64,000 bases of DNA from Syntrophomonas sp. DTU018 (GTDB lineage Bacteria > Bacillota > Syntrophomonadia > Syntrophomonadales > Syntrophomonadaceae). Of the stretch, positions 29,530-42,521 are shown one piece after another. The translations under genes and the position numbers were made by a program. The notes under the pieces were generated by a model. That model worked only from the letters and a program-made list of their open reading frames with translations. It was not told the origin of the DNA and did not search any database. The DNA is taken from the NCBI GenBank assembly GCA_001513155.1, contig LFSR01000006.1:1938-65937 (forward strand), read 5' to 3'. Numbering within the stretch: the first letter of the stretch is position 1; each line of letters begins with the position of its first letter.

Positions 29530-29654
29530 TAGTGTAACAAATTGGGACGAGCCTCTAGCTTCGTTCAGTTTCTTGAAACTCTGGTCGATTTAGGTCTCCT
29601 TTCCTCAGACAATTGACAAAAAAGCAGATTTAGTCACATAATAGGGATAACTTA

Positions 29655-29765
29655 AAAATAAGTCTCCGAGACTATGAACCTAAGGCGGTGCTGCTATGGG
29701 GCATGGTCCGATAGGGTGTATCGGGAAACTGGTATGCCTCCCGTGGTTGGAAAGGAGATGAGGCC
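29655..29765 (+). ncRNA. Moco/Tuco-type riboswitch upstream of tupA
   Basis: Leader RNA element. Visible helices: TCTCC (29663-29667) with GGAGA (29754-29758); GGCAT (29700-29704) with ATGCC (29734-29738); and CCGATA with TATCGG (29708-29722). Conserved-looking strings CTCCGAG, GGGAAAC, GCCTCCCG and GGAAAGG fit my memory of the Moco RNA motif. That motif controls molybdenum or tungsten cofactor and transport genes, and here it precedes tupABC. A terminator follows at 29791-29829 as expression platform. Confidence 0.72.
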
Positions 29766-29790
29766 AAGGGAATAAAACAAAAAAGAATGA

Positions 29791-34585: not shown

Positions 34586-34600
34586 AGTATACAGTATAAA

Positions 34601-34712
34601 AGCCCCCAGCTTATTGCATTCCGCTGGGGAGATGTTAAACTAGTAACCGTAAAATTAAAAGCTGATGGGCAATGAGGCCCAAGAAAGATGATGCTTTCTT
34701 GGGCCTTTTTTT
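34601..34712 (+). promoter_or_regulatory. carA leader with ANTAR-type hairpin and terminator
   Basis: TGGGC (34666-34670) and GCCCA (34677-34681) close a hexaloop AATGAG with A at 1 and G at 4, the ANTAR-protein loop rule. Its 3' strand is part of the terminator's 5' arm: GGCCCAAGAAAG (34676-34687) pairs perfectly with CTTTCTTGGGCC (34694-34705), then seven T. Folding the first hairpin would block the terminator. A possible upstream partner is the CCCCAGC/GCTGGGG stem (34604-34629), whose loop contains ATTGCA; this partner is less certain. Confidence 0.7.
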
Positions 34713-34755
34713 GTGGGTTTCTAAGGATAAACAGGGATGATGGAGGAAGGATTAT

Positions 34756-35871
34756 ATGACTTTCAGGAGCGGCTATCTGGTATTGGAAAACGGTGCTGTT
34801 TTCCGGGGTAAATTGAGGGGAGCCGCACCCGCTGTAGGGGAAGTGGTGTTTAACACCAGTATGGTAGGCTATGATCAGATTATCAGTGATCCCTCCTACA
34901 CCGGGCAAATCGTGGTGCTGACCTATCCCCTGGTGGGCAATTACGGATTCAACCGGGCCATGATGGAATCAGATCGCTGCTGGCTGCGGGGGCTGGTAAT
35001 TAAAGAACTGAACAACGGAGCTAATCATTATCAGCAGGAACAGCTTTTTCATGAGTACCTGGCCGAGAACAACCTGCCTTGCTTGTGGGATATAGATACC
35101 CGGGCTCTGACCAGGATGATCAGAACCCATGGCACCATGGGCGGAGTTATCACTGACAATATAGATAACTTTTCCTGGTTGGTGCAGCAGGCTGCCGAAT
35201 ATAAACCGCCTGCGGAAGGGTATGTGCGCCAGGCTACCTGTAGGGAGATAACCTGCCTGGGGCAGGGAGAACTGCGGGTTGTGGTGGTGGATTTCGGGGT
35301 AAAAAAGGCCATCACCAAGTCCCTTCTCAACCGGGGCTGTCAGGTGGTTCAGGTGCCGGCTACCACCAATGCGGAAATAATCAAAGGCCTGGAGCCTGAT
35401 GGCATCGTACTTTCCAATGGGCCGGGCAATCCGGAAGATTGTGATTATGCCCTGCCGGTTATTCGTCAATTGATGGGATATAAGCCCATGCTGGGCATCT
35501 GCCTGGGACATCAGCTGATTGCCCTGGCCTGGGGCGGCAAGACCAGCAAAATGGTATTTGGCCACCGGGGGGCCAATCAGCCGGTAAAGGACTTGCGCAC
35601 CGGCCGGGTCTATATTACCTCCCAGAACCACGGTTACATGGTAAACGAGGAATCCCTGGCCAATTTGCCGGTAGAAGTGACCTTCCGCAATCTCAATGAT
35701 GGTACCGTAGAAGGGCTGCGGCACAAGGTGCTGCCCATAATGTCCGTACAATTTCATCCCGAGGCCGCTCCCGGACCTCTGGACAGCGGGTTTCTGATGG
35801 ATGAATTTATTCAGATGGTGAAGGATTATAAATACAAGGAACGGGCGGAGTTGCAGAGCCATGCCGGATAA
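34756..35871 (+). CDS. carA: Carbamoyl-phosphate synthase small subunit
   Basis: 371 residues. Glutaminase subunit that feeds ammonia to CarB. N-terminal small-subunit domain with VFNTSMVGYDQIISDPSYTG and GNYGF; class I amidotransferase domain with nucleophile Cys249 in LGICLGHQ, His334 and Glu336 in FHPEAAPGP. ATG 34756 after GGAGGAAGGATT. carB does not follow: glnB, amtB and glnA do, with an ANTAR leader upstream, so here it is run as a nitrogen gene. CarB must lie elsewhere. Confidence 0.95.
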   Translation: MTFRSGYLVLENGAVFRGKLRGAAPAVGEVVFNTSMVGYDQIISDPSYTGQIVVLTYPLVGNYGFNRAMMESDRCWLRGLVIKELNNGANHYQQEQLFHEYLAENNLPCLWDIDTRALTRMIRTHGTMGGVITDNIDNFSWLVQQAAEYKPPAEGYVRQATCREITCLGQGELRVVVVDFGVKKAITKSLLNRGCQVVQVPATTNAEIIKGLEPDGIVLSNGPGNPEDCDYALPVIRQLMGYKPMLGICLGHQLIALAWGGKTSKMVFGHRGANQPVKDLRTGRVYITSQNHGYMVNEESLANLPVEVTFRNLNDGTVEGLRHKVLPIMSVQFHPEAAPGPLDSGFLMDEFIQMVKDYKYKERAELQSHAG

Positions 35872-35880
35872 ATAGCTTCA

Positions 35881-35988
35881 ACCGGATAGGAAACCCGGTC
35901 TTTCCCTAAACCTGGGTTTCAAAATAAATAAGCAAAGACCAGTAAAGGCACTGGATAACCTCAGGGTTATGCCGGTGCCATTTTTTTT
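35881..35988 (+). promoter_or_regulatory. glnB leader with ANTAR-type hairpin and terminator
   Basis: CCAGT (35939-35943) and ACTGG (35950-35954) close the hexaloop AAAGGC, A at 1 and G at 4. The 3' strand overlaps the terminator 35947-35979 (GGCAC ... ATAACC TCAG GGTTAT ... GTGCC) followed by eight T, which ends 16 bases before glnB. A first hairpin is expected upstream: ACCGG/CCGGT at 35881-35898 encloses ATAGGA but with a larger loop, so its form is uncertain. Confidence 0.72.
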
Positions 35989-36004: not shown

Positions 36005-36343
36005 ATGAAAAAAATCGAGGCGGTTATCCGCCCTACCAAGCTGGAGGAACTGAAAAAGGTTCTGAATGACATGGAAGTCAGAGGGTTAACGGTTTACAAC
36101 GTTATGGGCCGCGGCCTGCAGCAGGATATTAAGCACTACTACCGGGGTCAGGAAGTATCCATTGACCTGTTTGCCAAGGTGAAAGTTGAGATAGTATGCC
36201 CTGACCACTGGTTAGAGCGCATCATAGATGCCATTATCACCACCTGCCGGACCGGCGCCATCGGGGATGGCAAAATCTTTGTTTATCCCGTGGAAGAAGT
36301 TATCCGCATCAGCACTGGAGAACGGGGCGATGCAGCCCTGTAG
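36005..36343 (+). CDS. glnB: Nitrogen regulatory protein P-II
   Basis: 112 residues, trimeric sensor of 2-oxoglutarate, ATP and ADP. The signature TGAIGDGKIFV is present. The T-loop reads GRGLQQDIKHYYRGQEVSID: Tyr46 is kept but the residue at E. coli position 51, the uridylylated Tyr, is Val, so GlnD-type uridylylation is not expected. ATG 36005 follows AAAGGAGGTGATGGT. amtB is 56 bases downstream, so it probably gates that transporter. Confidence 0.95.
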   Translation: MKKIEAVIRPTKLEELKKVLNDMEVRGLTVYNVMGRGLQQDIKHYYRGQEVSIDLFAKVKVEIVCPDHWLERIIDAIITTCRTGAIGDGKIFVYPVEEVIRISTGERGDAAL

Positions 36344-36399: not shown

Positions 36400-37737
36400 A
36401 TGAGGCCAATATTTTTGCCGGTGGGAGGAGCAGTGTTATCCGCTCTGTTAATTGCAGAACCTGCCCTGGCCGCTGAGGAAGCAGTTGCCCTGAACCCAGG
36501 GGATACCGCTTTCATATTGCTCTGTGCCGCCCTGGTAATGCTGATGACTCCCGGCCTGGCCATGTTTTATGGGGGGATGGTGCGCAGCAAAAACGTACTC
36601 AGCATACTGATGCAGTGCCTGGCGGTTATGGCGGTAGTGTCCGTCCAGTGGGTGCTGCTGGGTTATACCTTAGCCTTTGGCCCGGATCATGGTTCGCTTA
36701 TCGGCGGCCTAAATTTCCTGGGTCTCAAGGGAGTAGGTATGGAACCGGTATCGGACACGGTAAGGATTCCTCAGGCAGCTTTTGCTGCTTTCCAGCTGAT
36801 GTTCGCCATGATCACCGCCGCCCTGATAGCGGGATCAGTTGCGGAAAGGATGAGGTTTTCAGCTTTTGTCGCCTTTACCCTCTTGTGGACTACCCTGATC
36901 TATGACCCCCTGGCGCACTGGGTCTGGGGCGGTGGCTGGATGGGCCAGCTGGGTATTATGGATTTTGCCGGAGGTACCGTAGTACACATAAGTTCCGGAG
37001 TTTCCGGGCTGGTGGCGGCGGTGGTGCTGGGTAAAAGGCTGGGCAAGGACCGGGAAGTAATACGTCCCCACCACCTGCCCATGACCATGCTGGGAGCCGG
37101 ATTGCTGTGGTTTGGCTGGTTTGGTTTCAATGCCGGCAGTGCGCTGGCAGCCGATGGCATCGCTGCTCAGGCTTTTCTGGTTACTAACCTGTGTGCTGCA
37201 GCGGGTGTGTTTTCCTGGGTGGGTATGGAATGGATTCTCCACGGTAAACCTACTTTATTTGGCGCCGCCAGCGGGGCCATTGCCGGTCTGGTTTGCATCA
37301 CTCCCGCAGCAGGATTCGTCAGTCCCCTAAGTGCAGTAGTCATGGGCCTGCTGGTAGGACCTCTCTGTTACCTGGCGGTCAGCAGGGTGAAGGAAAAATT
37401 CGGCTACGACGATTCCCTGGATGCCTTTGGCATACATGGAGTAGGAGGTACATTAGGGGCCTTATTGACCGGAATATTTGCTTCCACCGCAGTGAATCCC
37501 GTCGGATTCGATGGCTGGCTGGCGGGAAATCCAGGCCAGTTTATGCTGCAAGCCCTGGGTGTGGCAGTCACCTATGTATTTGCGGGGCTGGGCACCTACA
37601 TTATCCTGAAGGTAATCAGCAGATTTACCGAACTGCGGGTTTCCGCCGATGAGGAAGAGTATGGACTGGATCAATCCCTGCATGGGGAAGCTGCTTATGT
37701 TAATACCGACCTGAGCGGCTCTGCCCAGGCCAGCTGA
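36400..37737 (+). CDS. amtB: Ammonium transporter
   Basis: 445 residues. A signal-like segment ending ALAAEEA, then about eleven membrane helices; AMFYGGMVRSKNVLS and the pore-histidine regions (HWVWGGGWMG, FGIHGVGGTLG) are typical. It takes up ammonium/ammonia and binds P-II at the cytoplasmic face. ATG 36400 after AAGGAGGGTTAGTT. Coupled glnB-amtB pair, found in most nitrogen-regulated bacteria. Confidence 0.96.
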   Translation: MRPIFLPVGGAVLSALLIAEPALAAEEAVALNPGDTAFILLCAALVMLMTPGLAMFYGGMVRSKNVLSILMQCLAVMAVVSVQWVLLGYTLAFGPDHGSLIGGLNFLGLKGVGMEPVSDTVRIPQAAFAAFQLMFAMITAALIAGSVAERMRFSAFVAFTLLWTTLIYDPLAHWVWGGGWMGQLGIMDFAGGTVVHISSGVSGLVAAVVLGKRLGKDREVIRPHHLPMTMLGAGLLWFGWFGFNAGSALAADGIAAQAFLVTNLCAAAGVFSWVGMEWILHGKPTLFGAASGAIAGLVCITPAAGFVSPLSAVVMGLLVGPLCYLAVSRVKEKFGYDDSLDAFGIHGVGGTLGALLTGIFASTAVNPVGFDGWLAGNPGQFMLQALGVAVTYVFAGLGTYIILKVISRFTELRVSADEEEYGLDQSLHGEAAYVNTDLSGSAQAS

Positions 37738-37860
37738 CCAGGGGCCGAAAGTATACAATATATCCGTACAAAACCTATTGTAATGGTAGGGTTAGCAAGT
37801 TTACAATGACAGCGTAACAGATAAGGACCTTTATTTTCAGGCATAATTCTATAGTGATAT

Positions 37861-37923
37861 GGACAATGGCGTCCCAGGTATGTAAGGCACATCAGATGCA
37901 CCCATATCTTGTGGCGTTTTTTT
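37861..37923 (+). promoter_or_regulatory. Autoregulatory ANTAR leader (two hairpins plus terminator)
   Basis: First hairpin GGAC-AATGGC-GTCC (37861-37874), a perfect hexaloop with A1 and G4. Five bases on, ATGT-AAGGC-ACAT (37880-37892), which is a pentaloop or, with a bulged T, hexaloop AAGGCA with A1 and G4. An imperfect terminator hairpin using GGCACATCAGATG (from 37886) as 5' arm ends in TTTTTTT (37917-37923). This is the classic dual-hairpin layout recognised by ANTAR proteins, placed before the ANTAR gene itself. Confidence 0.7.
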
Positions 37924-37954
37924 ATGCCCAAAATAGGGTGGCAGGTAAAGGCAG

Positions 37955-38548
37955 GTGGTGCGATTGAGAGACAGGATTATTTTAGCCAGCGTGATTCCAG
38001 CTGAGTTAAAGCTGATGAACAATATTCTGCAGCGGGCTGGTTACCAGGTAACCGCCGAAGCCGACAGTGTCGGGCAGGCCCTGAGAAAAGTGCGCTCCCT
38101 GTACTGTGATCTGATTATTATCGACAGCGGTTTGGACGGCGGCAAGGGTTACAAGCTGGCAGAAATCGTAGACCAGGACCGGCTGGCTGCGGTGCTGATG
38201 ATAACGGACACGGATGTTGCCTACTTCAAGCATCAGTTTGCCTATATTCTCAAACCCATCAGCAGTGAAAACCTGATACCGGCTGTCAAATCCGCTCTCT
38301 GGAACTGGCGCCGGGAAGAAGAATTGCGGCAGCGGATCAGCCACCTGGAAAACAAGCTGGAAACCAGAATTCTTGTGGACAGAGCCAAGGGAATACTGAT
38401 GGATATCCAGGGATGGACGGAAGAACAGGCTCACCGCTATATACAAAAAGAAGCTATGAACCAGGGTATTACCGCCCGGCAAATGGCGACGATGATTTTG
38501 CAGAAATTGGGGAAGACCCGGGGATTGCCAAAGAAAGAGGAGGAATGA
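37955..38548 (+). CDS. ANTAR-domain transcription antiterminator
   Basis: 197 residues. N-terminal receiver-like domain (about 5-118) with phosphoacceptor-type Asp57 (LIIIDSGL) and Lys100 (ILKP), but the usual acidic pair near residue 12 is Ala-Ser, so phosphorylation is doubtful. A coiled coil (about 120-140) leads to the ANTAR RNA-binding domain (RAKGILMDIQGWTEEQAHRYI to MATMIL). It should bind paired hexaloops in nascent RNA and prevent termination at nitrogen genes. glnA follows after 3 bases. Start uncertain: GTG 37955, GTG 37958 or TTG 37964. Confidence 0.9.
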   Translation: MVRLRDRIILASVIPAELKLMNNILQRAGYQVTAEADSVGQALRKVRSLYCDLIIIDSGLDGGKGYKLAEIVDQDRLAAVLMITDTDVAYFKHQFAYILKPISSENLIPAVKSALWNWRREEELRQRISHLENKLETRILVDRAKGILMDIQGWTEEQAHRYIQKEAMNQGITARQMATMILQKLGKTRGLPKKEEE

Positions 38549-38551
38549 CCT

Positions 38552-39886
38552 ATGACAGAGGCCAAGAAAATGGAAGTTTTAGAAAAAGTCAAGACTCATG
38601 GAGTGCGGTTTGTCCGCTTGCAATTTACCGATGTCAATGGAGTGCTGAAGAACGTTGCCATTCCCGCCAGTCAGGTGGAAAAGGCTTTAGAGGGAGATCT
38701 GATGTTTGACGGGTCATCCATTGAAGGGTTTGCCCGCATTGAAGAATCAGATATGTATCTGATTCCCGATCCGGATACCTTTGCTATTATGCCCTGGCGT
38801 CCTTCCAGCGGAGCCGTGGCCCGGATGATATGCGATGTGTACACCCCGGCCAAGGAACCCTTTATCGGGGATCCCCGCAGTAATCTTAAGAGAATAATCA
38901 AACAGGCGGAAGAGATGGGCTTCATCATGAACGCCGGCCCCGAATGCGAATTCTTCTTATTCAACCTCAATGAAGAGGGGGTTCCGGTAATTCACACCCA
39001 TGATGAAGCGGGTTATTTTGACCTGGCTCCCGTGGATCTGGGAGAAGATGCCCGCCGGGATATGGTATGCACCCTGGAAGATATGGGCTTTGAGATCGAA
39101 GCTTCCCATCATGAGGTGGCCCCCGGCCAGCACGAAATAGATTTCAAATACGGCCCGGCCTTGCGGGTAGCCGACGACATCGTTACCTTCAAGCTGGTGG
39201 TCCGCACCATAGCCCAGCGCCATGGCCTGCATGCCACCTTTATGCCCAAACCCATTGTAGGCATTAACGGATCCGGCATGCACACCCACCAGTCCCTGGC
39301 TAGCCTGGACGGGACCAACCTGTTCTATGATCCCCATACTCCTGACCAGCTCAGTCAGATAGCCCGCTGGTATATGGGCGGTATTATCAAGCATGCCCGG
39401 GCACTAACTGCGGTTACCAATCCCACGGTGAACTCTTACAAGCGCCTGGTACCCGGCTATGAGGCTCCGGTGTATGTAGCCTGGTCGGAACAAAACCGCA
39501 GTTGCTTGATCCGGGTTCCCGCCAAGCGGGGTGCTTCCACCCGTATAGAAGTGCGGCATCCTGACCCCAGCTGCAATCCTTACCTGGCCATGGCCGTAAT
39601 GCTGGCTGCCGGTCTGGACGGAGTAAAGAACCAGATTGAGCCGCCTGCCCCAGTGAATTCCAATATATATCACATGACTCAAGAGGAGCGGGATCGCCTG
39701 GGGATTCCCAGCCTGCCTGGTTCCCTGGCGGAAGCCCTGCAGTGCCTGGAAGAGGATCAACTGATTAAAGACGCCCTGGGCCCCCATATTTACAAGAAGT
39801 TTACGGAAGTCAAATGGGCTGAATGGGAGCGGTACTGCCGGGAAGTTCATCCCTGGGAAATCAAGGAGTACCTGCGCAAGTTCTAA
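38552..39886 (+). CDS. glnA: Glutamine synthetase, type I
   Basis: 444 residues, exactly the B. subtilis GlnA length, GSI-alpha class without the adenylylation Tyr. Makes glutamine from glutamate, ammonia and [19 protein letters not shown] contains Arg62, the feedback-control residue of Bacillus GlnA. Metal and substrate motifs [24 protein letters not shown] and the RIPAKRG-like [19 protein letters not shown] are present. ATG 38552 follows AGAGGAGGAATGACCT. Co-transcribed with the ANTAR gene upstream. Confidence 0.98.
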
Positions 39887-39911: not shown

Positions 39912-41024
39912 ATGCTGCGGCGTGAGGGAGAGATCAGGATACCCAGCGGTTGCGCAATTGCGGGTATAATCAACCGCCAGGGGGAACGCTTTGATGGCAG
40001 TGCTATCATAGCCAGTATTGCCAATATGCACCAGCGCTCCAACGGGCTGGGAGGGGGCTTTGCTGCCTATGGAATTTACCAGGAATATAAGGATTATTTC
40101 GCTTTGCATATTTACTATGATGATGAAACCGCCCGGCAGCTGACAGAAAACTATCTGAACCAGAATTTCCGCATAGTGGTTAACGAGATGCTGCCCCTGC
40201 GGCCTCTGCGCAGGATTGTTGACGCTCCCCTGATCTGGCGGTATTTCGTTACGCCCCGGGAAGAAAAGCTGATGGTCAGTCATCTCAGCGAGGACGATTT
40301 TATCTTCAAAGCGGTGATGTGGATAAATGACTGCGTGCGGGGAGCTTTTGTGGCTTCCAGCGGCAAAAACATGGGGGCTTTCAAGGGAGTAGGGTATCCC
40401 GAGGACATCGGTGAGTTCTTCCGCCTGGAGGAGTACCATGCTTACCTGTGGACCGCTCATGGGCGCTTTCCCACCAATACCCCAGGGTGGTGGGGCGGTG
40501 CCCATCCCTTCACCCTACTCAACTGGTCGGTGGTGCATAACGGGGAGATTTCCTCCTACAGTACCAACCGCCGTTTCCTGGAGATGTACGGGTACAGGTG
40601 TTCCTTGCAGACTGATACCGAGGTAATTGCCTACACCTTTGATTTTTTGATGCGCAAACAGCAGCTGACTTTGGAGGAGACTCTGGATGTGATTGCTGCG
40701 CCTTTCTGGACCACCATCCAGAAGGAAGCCCAGGCTCGCCTGCGGCGCCAGTACGGAGCCCTGCTTTTGAACGGGCCCTTTTCCATCATAGTGGCTACTG
40801 ACCATGGCCTGGTGGCTGTTAATGACCGCATCAAACTGCGGCCTCTTGTTGCAGCTACCCGGGGCAGTTACCTGTATGTGGCCAGTGAAGAGTCAGCCAT
40901 CCGGGTAGTTGCGCCTGTGGTAGAGAAAGTATGGACTCCCGGGGGAGGAGAACCGGTAGTCGGGTTGTTAAAGGATAAGGAAGGACTGATCGCTATGCCG
41001 GATCAGCAGAGCAGGTCAGCCTAA
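39912..41024 (+). CDS. Glutamate synthase, glutamine amidotransferase subunit
   Basis: 370-residue class II amidotransferase: the N-terminal domain of GltB as a separate protein. The likely nucleophile is Cys14 (IPSGCAIAGI), needing removal of a 13-residue leader or acting internally; RSNGLGGGFAAYG, AHGRFPTNTPGWWGGAHPF and VVHNGEISSY are the glutaminase motifs. It should release ammonia from glutamine for the FMN subunit. ATG 39912 after GGGGGAGGGATTATCA. Fits the split (archaeal-type) glutamate synthase found in many anaerobes. Confidence 0.9.
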   Translation: MLRREGEIRIPSGCAIAGIINRQGERFDGSAIIASIANMHQRSNGLGGGFAAYGIYQEYKDYFALHIYYDDETARQLTENYLNQNFRIVVNEMLPLRPLRRIVDAPLIWRYFVTPREEKLMVSHLSEDDFIFKAVMWINDCVRGAFVASSGKNMGAFKGVGYPEDIGEFFRLEEYHAYLWTAHGRFPTNTPGWWGGAHPFTLLNWSVVHNGEISSYSTNRRFLEMYGYRCSLQTDTEVIAYTFDFLMRKQQLTLEETLDVIAAPFWTTIQKEAQARLRRQYGALLLNGPFSIIVATDHGLVAVNDRIKLRPLVAATRGSYLYVASEESAIRVVAPVVEKVWTPGGGEPVVGLLKDKEGLIAMPDQQSRSA

Positions 41025-41042: not shown

Positions 41043-42521
41043 ATGACCATGAAGATGTTGACTCCGGCCTTTGCCGTGCAGCGGGATACGGAGCGTTGCA
41101 TAGGCTGCGGAGTATGTATAAATCAATGCATTAATGAAGTTCACCATATGGATGAAGATGGCTGGATGTGGGTGGATGAAGACCGCTGCGTAGGCTGCCA
41201 GCGCTGTGGAGTGCTATGCCCCACCCATGCCTTGAGTATTACAGAATTTCCTATGCAGTTTCGCGGCAACCAGTACTGGTCGCCTTCCCATATCCGGGAA
41301 ATCTATGCCCAGGCCCAAACCGGCGGAGTGCTCCTTACCGGCATGGGCAATCCCCGGCGTTACCGGTGTTACTTTGATCACCTGCTGCTTAATGCCAGCC
41401 AGGTTACCAATCCTTCCATCGATCCTCTGCGGGAACCTATGGAACTGACCACTTACCTGGGCAATAAGGATGTGGAGGTACCGGACCGGGAGAAACCCCA
41501 GCTGAAGTTAAAGGTCCCGGTAATGTTTGCCGCCATGTCCTATGGCGCAGTCAGCCTCAATGTGCAGAACTCCCTGGCCATGGCTGCCCGGGAAGCGGGA
41601 ACCATGTGGAATACGGGGGAAGGCGGGCTCCATGCCGATCTGCGGGAATTCGCCCCTCACACCATAGTCCAGGTGGCTTCGGGAAGATTCGGCGTGAACC
41701 CGGACTATTTGGGGGCAGCCGCGGCAGTAGAGATAAAAATCGGTCAGGGTGCCAAGCCCGGTATAGGCGGGCACCTGCCGGGAGAAAAGGTGACTCCGGA
41801 TGTAGCCCGGACCCGTATGATTCCAACCTGGTCCGATGCCATCTCCCCGGCTCCCCACCATGACATTTATTCCATAGAGGACCTGGCCCAGCTGGTAGAA
41901 ACCCTCAAGGTGGCTACCCGCTATACCAAGCCCATCTCCGTCAAGGTAGCGGCGGTGCATAATATTGCCGCCATTGCCTCGGGTATTGTCAGAGCGGGAG
42001 CAGACATTGTGGTTATTGACGGATTCCGGGGAGCCACCGGAGCCGCACCTTTGCGTATCCGGGACAACACCGGCATTCCTATAGAAGTAGCCCTGGCCCA
42101 GGTACACCAGCGCTTGCTGGACGAAGGAATTCGCCAGCGGGCTTCCCTGGTAGCTTCCGGGGGCATCCGCAGCAGTGCCGATGTAATCAAGGCCATTATT
42201 CTGGGAGCAGATGCCGTATATATCGGCACCGCCGCTTTGATTGCCCTGGGCTGTCATATGTGCCAGTGCTGCTTTACCGGCCGCTGCAACTGGGGTATTG
42301 CTACCACCGATGCCCGGTTGAGCAAGCGCCTGAACCCCCGCCTGGGTGCGGAAATGGCCGCTAACCTGCTGCAGGCCTGGGCCCATGAGATAAAAGAGAT
42401 GATGGGCGGCATGGGAATAAACTCGGTGGACAGCCTGCGGGGCAACCGACTTATGCTCCGGGGAGTAGGGCTGGAACGGCACGAGCTGGAACTGCTCGGC
42501 GTGCTGGCTGCCGGAGAGTAG
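41043..42521 (+). CDS. Glutamate synthase, FMN/Fe-S synthase subunit
   Basis: 492 residues. An N-terminal 2[4Fe-4S] ferredoxin module (CIGCGVCINQC, CVGCQRCGVLC) precedes the FMN-binding glutamate synthase barrel (about 90-480): GEGGLHADLREFAPH, GAKPGIGGHLPGEKV, SVKVAAVHNIA and GGIRSSADVIKAIILGADAV. The site for a 3Fe-4S cluster is LGCHMCQCCFTGRC. It makes glutamate from 2-oxoglutarate and ammonia, with ferredoxin or the neighbouring flavoprotein as donor. ATG 41043 after GGAGGAGAACCGTC. Confidence 0.93.
   Translation: MTMKMLTPAFAVQRDTERCIGCGVCINQCINEVHHMDEDGWMWVDEDRCVGCQRCGVLCPTHALSITEFPMQFRGNQYWSPSHIREIYAQAQTGGVLLTGMGNPRRYRCYFDHLLLNASQVTNPSIDPLREPMELTTYLGNKDVEVPDREKPQLKLKVPVMFAAMSYGAVSLNVQNSLAMAAREAGTMWNTGEGGLHADLREFAPHTIVQVASGRFGVNPDYLGAAAAVEIKIGQGAKPGIGGHLPGEKVTPDVARTRMIPTWSDAISPAPHHDIYSIEDLAQLVETLKVATRYTKPISVKVAAVHNIAAIASGIVRAGADIVVIDGFRGATGAAPLRIRDNTGIPIEVALAQVHQRLLDEGIRQRASLVASGGIRSSADVIKAIILGADAVYIGTAALIALGCHMCQCCFTGRCNWGIATTDARLSKRLNPRLGAEMAANLLQAWAHEIKEMMGGMGINSVDSLRGNRLMLRGVGLERHELELLGVLAAGE

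Follow-up and report, generated by a model that had tools for sequence, protein, structure and literature searches.

How many hexaloop hairpins does an ANTAR protein need in order to control a transcription attenuator? The question is raised by the leader of an ANTAR-glnA operon in Syntrophomonas sp. DTU018, which was analyzed within a DNA stretch of 64,000 nucleotides (nt), referred to as the window. Ramesh 2012 (PMC3369931) defined the target as a dual hairpin (P1 and P2) and reported that deletion of P1 abolishes eutP induction; many of the targets predicted there are nitrogen genes, including those for glutamine synthetase and P-II. An actinobacterial survey (PMC8164766) retained the dual motif with a linker of 2-25 nt as the definition. 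According to Walshe 2022 (PMC8934654), the affinity of EutV is similar for P1 and for P2 when each is present alone, and a single hexaloop was redefined there as the minimal target; the question of where such targets occur was left open. Here, we describe a leader that is probably an attenuator with one hexaloop and would be recognized by the product of the adjacent downstream ANTAR gene.

Layout of the ANTAR-glnA leader

A preliminary description of the leader had reported a GGAC[AATGGC]GTCC hairpin with A1 and G4 in its loop, a terminator with seven T, and an ANTAR gene followed by glnA, and all of these are present as placed. It had also taken the hairpin for the first of a dual pair of the EutV/NasR type, with a second recognition hairpin behind it. 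The elements concerned are:

37861..37874, plus strand: ANTAR hexaloop hairpin GGAC[AATGGC]GTCC, predicted antiterminator in P2 position
37868..37923, plus strand: intrinsic terminator of the ANTAR-glnA leader, predicted by folding, with seven T at 37917-37923
37880..37892, plus strand: ATGT-AAGGC-ACAT, second hairpin of the preliminary description, inside the apical loop of the terminator

The loop determinants of the hexaloop are A1 at 37865 and G4 at 37868. In the folded terminator, 37868-37882 pairs with 37903-37918, such that its 5' arm comprises the loop from G4 onward and the entire 3' half of the GGAC hairpin. Because of this overlap, the GGAC hairpin actually has the P2 position in EutV terms, and P1 would lie upstream. 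As in ANTAR target RNAs, it has a short stem closing a six-base loop with A1 and G4, and it overlaps and excludes an intrinsic terminator.

In the dual arrangement initially proposed, P1 would be GGAC[AATGGC]GTCC and P2 would be ATGT[AAGGC]ACAT in front of the terminator. Both sequences exist, the AAGGC loop starts with A and has G as its fourth base, and ATGT[ACAGC]ACAT is kept in the nearest relatives. However, the second loop has five bases, no hexaloop closes at 37880-37892, and the element lies within the apical loop of the terminator, of which the first hairpin provides the 5' arm. Furthermore, it is lost in L005, L006, L007, and L035, and no such loop is present in the carA, PII, and asnB leaders described below. 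Relatives have ATGTACAGCACAT, ATGTAAAGCAACA, ATGTTGCACAAG, and GATAATGCTCGACAT at this spot, and the element is kept in the closest genomes only. From these sequences, ATGT-AAGGC-ACAT was judged to be no recognition element, and it is extremely improbable that the two hairpins form a dual target.

Folding of the whole glnA leader alone was uninformative (z-score -0.59), and Rfam searches at the gathering threshold and at E<=1 revealed no match to an ANTAR family. NsiR1 matched the carA leader below threshold (29.7 bits against a threshold of 39), which we attribute to a similar terminator shape. An alternative hexaloop in the window, TCTAT[AGTGAT]ATGGA, lacks conservation and was discarded for this reason. 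A search of the own genome with GGRYRNNGRYGTCY yielded 11 sites, and a terminator was found at the glnA leader only.

Covariation, co-occurrence, and the ANTAR protein

The host genome of 2.56 Mb belongs to the order Syntrophomonadales (Bacillota). Upstream of the ANTAR-glnA genes of this order, about 28 distinct leaders have a GGRY[RNNGRY]GTCY hairpin overlapping a terminator at the same place. In an alignment of 24 leaders of ANTAR, carA, PII, and amtB genes (A2), A1 and G4 of the hexaloop were invariant. The hexaloop stem was paired in 100% of the cells and the terminator stem in 88%, values that are partly due to construction, because paired stems had been required of the training leaders and in the scans. 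As sequence evidence, changes on both sides between leaders of one gene are firmer than these percentages. Double-change cells numbered 26 in the hexaloop stem versus 6.5 +/- 3.4 after shuffling, and 35 in the terminator stem versus 12.5; in both cases none of 500 shuffles reached the observed value, and sliding the partners destroyed both signals. Four shared columns show covariation with each of two partners, the pattern that mutually exclusive folds should produce, and at the level of sequence the comparison establishes these two folds and their covariation. The preliminary description had named covariation of its two stems as a check; it is seen for the hexaloop stem and for the terminator stem, but not for the second stem proposed there.

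Two variants of the leader were observed. In the sub-clade L025-L028 and L043-L046, G1 and U6 replace A1 and C6 of the hexaloop; position 6 changes together with its terminator partner. In family f16 (L017, L048, L050), just 5' of the ANTAR gene, the hexaloop hairpin overlaps a CCTCG/CGAGG stem and no terminator. This stem would cover the ribosome-binding site, and a translational version of the control is possible.

The presence of leaders was compared with that of the ANTAR gene in 63 genomes of the order. Matches to the covariance model R1 were detected in 29 of the 32 genomes with an ANTAR relative (E<=1e-15) and in 2 of the 31 genomes without one (Fisher p 3e-12); some of the 29 positive genomes had supplied training sequences, and the near-absence in the negatives is independent of that. 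The two exceptions, G016 and G019, have weaker ANTAR-like matches (1.6e-10 and 1.6e-11). Linkage to the ANTAR gene is thus also established by comparison. Conservation, covariation, and this tight co-occurrence agree with the view, already put forward from the sequence, that the leader would be an ANTAR-type attenuator of its own operon, which implies positive autoregulation. In sequence terms, ANTAR autoregulation by antitermination is well supported, and a dual hairpin is not.

Alternatively, the leaders could be attenuators for another factor, an RNA-binding protein or a small RNA, and the proximity of the ANTAR gene could be coincidental. ANTAR binding to the leaders is indeed deduced from sequence, and the receiver domain of the protein is degenerate. 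However, A1 and G4 of the loop are known ANTAR determinants, the distribution of the leaders over the genomes follows that of the ANTAR gene, and the RNA-contacting residues Arg142, Lys149, and Met172 of EutV (roles from PMC8934654) have kept equivalents in the aligned window protein. This explanation is therefore very unlikely. The protein in question is:

37955..38548, plus strand: ANTAR response-regulator-like protein with a degenerate receiver domain; PF03861 68.5 bits (cut-off 27.3), PF00072 44.7 bits

It shares the ANTAR domain with EutV-like regulators, and its solved relatives are EutV and Rv1626. At the position of Tyr164, the window protein and its closest relatives have His, with Tyr or Phe elsewhere. 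The receiver has kept the phospho-acceptor Asp and the Lys, but according to the alignment its acidic pair Asp-Asp is replaced by Ser-Val, such that it falls outside the pattern of a phosphorylatable receiver and the usual phosphorylation is doubtful. We noticed no kinase gene next to the ANTAR gene, though no search for one was made. PII and glutamine synthetase, which are encoded next door, would be candidate inputs. An NCBIfam search with the protein returned generic response regulators only. The 5' end of the open reading frame (ORF) lies 31 nt past the T-run, and TTG at 37964, behind AGGTGGTG, is probably the start codon.

A single-hexaloop attenuator would probably operate as follows. 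As long as active ANTAR protein is lacking, the transcript would fold into the terminator from loop G4 onward, leaving the ANTAR-glnA-glutamate synthase operon mostly off. Under nitrogen shortage, the active protein would hold the GGAC[AATGGC]GTCC hairpin, its 3' half would be unavailable as the 5' arm of the terminator, and the polymerase would read through. Read-through would lead to more ANTAR protein, and thus to positive feedback. The same protein, encoded by the only ANTAR gene of the genome, would also serve the carA, PII-amtB, and asnB leaders.

Search for an upstream P1 hexaloop

P1 was searched for as an A1/G4 hexaloop on at least 4 base pairs (bp) with at most one G-U pair, ending at most 25 nt from P2. 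Such a hairpin was found in 1 of 75 Syntrophomonadales leaders, compared to 2.1 expected in shuffles, such that neither the proposed EutV/NasR-type layout nor the two hairpins with a 2-25 nt linker that define the dual target were recovered. The 45 nt 5' of P2 were no better structured than shuffles (mean z -0.22, 75 leaders). In other Bacillota families, where dual-hexaloop leaders precede ANTAR-glnA, the same kind of scan revealed P1 in about 15 leaders, e.g. GATAC[ANNGNN]GTATC followed after 4-22 nt by P2. Because the scan detects duals elsewhere, they are missing before these genes in Syntrophomonadales, as far as sequence comparison can establish. A few other genes of the order have duals or duals with long linkers (L136 at 1010, L135 at 624, L173, and L203 at 1863). 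In L173 and L203 (1863-1915), at a gene of unclear role, the extra A1/G4 hexaloop lies 24-31 nt 5' of P2, an unusually long linker.

The predicted -10 elements are 24-53 nt from the hexaloop in the order, with 25-27 nt in the carA leaders. In some other families (L047, L051, L077, L014) this distance is 14-16 nt, which leaves no space for P1. In the protein tree, the single-leader members of the order and one f28 protein form one clade (96/88). The dual leaders fall outside it, and three changes between the single and the dual state may be enough overall.

A dual system might persist with a diverged upstream P1 that lacks A1/G4, either ATT-CTATAGT-GAT at about 37846-37858 or the long stem of genus g22. 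ATAG is kept in the genus of the window and in g3; g22 has a stem of 6-7 bp directly upstream with changes on both sides, and in L041/L042 its loop has CC[AAAGAC]GG. On the other hand, the stem in the window has 3 bp and is broken in L005 and L035, the structure signal over the 75 leaders is nil, and the distances from -10 to the hairpin are short in carA leaders and in several leaders of other families. We regard a diverged P1 as unlikely.

Several points nevertheless weigh against a single-hexaloop attenuator. Weak stems are present 5' of P2 in some genera (AATAATA/TATTATT in L008), including the 3-bp stem around ATAG in the genus of the window. In the EutV system, P1 deletion abolishes induction (PMC3369931), and a single hexaloop must therefore work differently. 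Pairing was in part built into the alignments, as stated above. ANTAR binding, the direction of control, the nitrogen signal, and the promoter positions are what we infer, and the transcript start at about 37813-37815 is a prediction only.

A probable nitrogen regulon and its predicted promoters

The preliminary description had overlooked the regulon context, namely two more leaders within the window. Scanning the window (64 kb) for hexaloops with an overlapping terminator yielded 5 sites versus 1.1 expected in shuffles, and the additional leaders are:

34664..34714, plus strand: single-hexaloop leader of the carA paralogue, TGGGC[AATGAG]GCCCA (34666-34681), overlapping a terminator; 41.9 bits
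35937..35986, plus strand: single-hexaloop leader of PII-amtB, CCAGT[AAAGGC]ACTGG (35939-35954), overlapping a terminator; 30.4 bits

In the own genome, R1 retrieved the carA leader and the glnA leader (33.9 bits); the PII leader obtained its score in the window search and is missing among the genome-wide matches, and all three window leaders (30-42 bits) belong to the training set of the model. The carA leader recurs before carA in genomes of the same family with changed stem bases, and the PII-amtB leader is kept in L032/L125 and partly in L034. Beyond the window, the same genome has an asnB leader with GGGC[AATGGG]GCCC (G000:C34:115754-115794, minus strand, L170), located directly 5' of the asparagine synthetase gene and with a terminator, a ribosome-binding site, and a start codon; it was absent from the training set and matched R1 with 25.3 bits (E 0.087). 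Targets in relatives comprise carA, PII, amtB (also alone), asnB, glutamine synthetases of types I and III, gdh, an amidotransferase, and some genes of unclear role, nitrogen genes being the majority. In genus g22 (L132, L214), a cluster has separate single-hexaloop terminators for PII and for amtB, i.e. attenuators in series. Judged by these sequences, the best reading is that single-hexaloop ANTAR attenuators likely form a nitrogen regulon throughout the clade.

The cluster in the window has the order carA paralogue, PII, amtB, ANTAR, glnA, and two subunits of a split glutamate synthase:

34756..35871, plus strand: carA paralogue (glutamine amidotransferase subunit)
36005..36343, plus strand: PII protein; the listed ORF start at 35969 falls inside the terminator
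36400..37737, plus strand: amtB ammonium transporter
38552..39886, plus strand: glnA
39912..41024, plus strand: class II glutamine amidotransferase subunit of the split glutamate synthase
41043..42521, plus strand: FMN-binding subunit of glutamate synthase with a ferredoxin domain

The true start of PII is likely 36005, 3' of the terminator and a ribosome-binding site. The carA paralogue of the cluster has no adjoining carB; another carA is located on contig C6, in the vicinity of carB. Elsewhere in the window (29652-29773), a Moco RNA, a molybdenum/tungsten cofactor riboswitch (77 bits), is located about 100 nt 5' of a substrate-binding protein gene of an apparent tungstate/molybdate ABC transporter.

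The promoters of the ANTAR-glnA operon and of the carA paralogue share a further element:

37751..37761, plus strand: GTATACAATAT box, 16 nt 5' of -35 of the ANTAR-glnA promoter
37778..37783, plus strand: predicted -35, TTGTAA
37802..37807, plus strand: predicted -10, TACAAT
34587..34597, plus strand: GTATACAGTAT box of the carA-paralogue promoter (-35 TTGCAT at 34614, -10 TAAACT at 34636)

GTATACARTAT was found 16 nt (rarely 17) 5' of a TTG -35 in 44 distinct promoters. In 299 Bacillota genomes, 62 sites had the fixed spacing versus about 7 with a reversed-pattern control, and the box was commoner in genomes with an ANTAR relative (29/81 versus 16/218). A hexaloop followed in 20 of 29 inspected sites (4.3 expected); in the own genome, three of five boxes have no hexaloop leader behind. 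By its sequence and position the box looks like an activator site, and a literature search revealed no description of it. A wider scenario is offered tentatively: this clade may have dropped P1 and run a single-hexaloop nitrogen regulon in which the usual receiver phosphorylation is bypassed, possibly because PII or glutamine synthetase contacts the regulator, with GTATACARTAT as a second promoter element.

Compared with EutV and the eut leaders of Enterococcus faecalis (PMC3369931, PMC8934654), the window leaders have in common the A1/G4 hexaloop at the 5' base of the terminator (P2) and a receiver-ANTAR regulator, but they lack the P1 hexaloop and the linker, the receiver lacks the acidic pair, and the regulon is one of nitrogen assimilation. 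The nitrogen regulons of Desulfotomaculum reducens and D. acetoxidans (PMC3369931) likewise include P-II, ammonium transporter, and glutamine/glutamate synthase leaders; these were found with a dual-hairpin model and reported as dual, whereas here one hexaloop is present. The motif is the same as the single-hexaloop minimal target (PMC8934654), here sited in attenuators, and in sequence terms the leaders would answer the question raised there of where such targets occur. They would work like ANTAR attenuators but fail the two-hairpin definition, and thus appear to be a variant. NitR of Clostridium saccharobutylicum, an ANTAR-type regulator encoded with glnA, is reported to act by antitermination and may be a parallel.

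Because the published searches for ANTAR targets considered here define two hexaloops, single-hexaloop leaders would be missed and ANTAR regulons undercounted. If one hexaloop suffices in a transcribed attenuator, the model that P1 recruits and P2 antiterminates would not be general, and the existence of single-hexaloop targets would be directly testable in vitro with short leaders. For syntrophic anaerobes, the leaders would outline a nitrogen-control circuit in which one ANTAR protein acts on the carA, PII-amtB, glnA-glutamate synthase, and asnB leaders.
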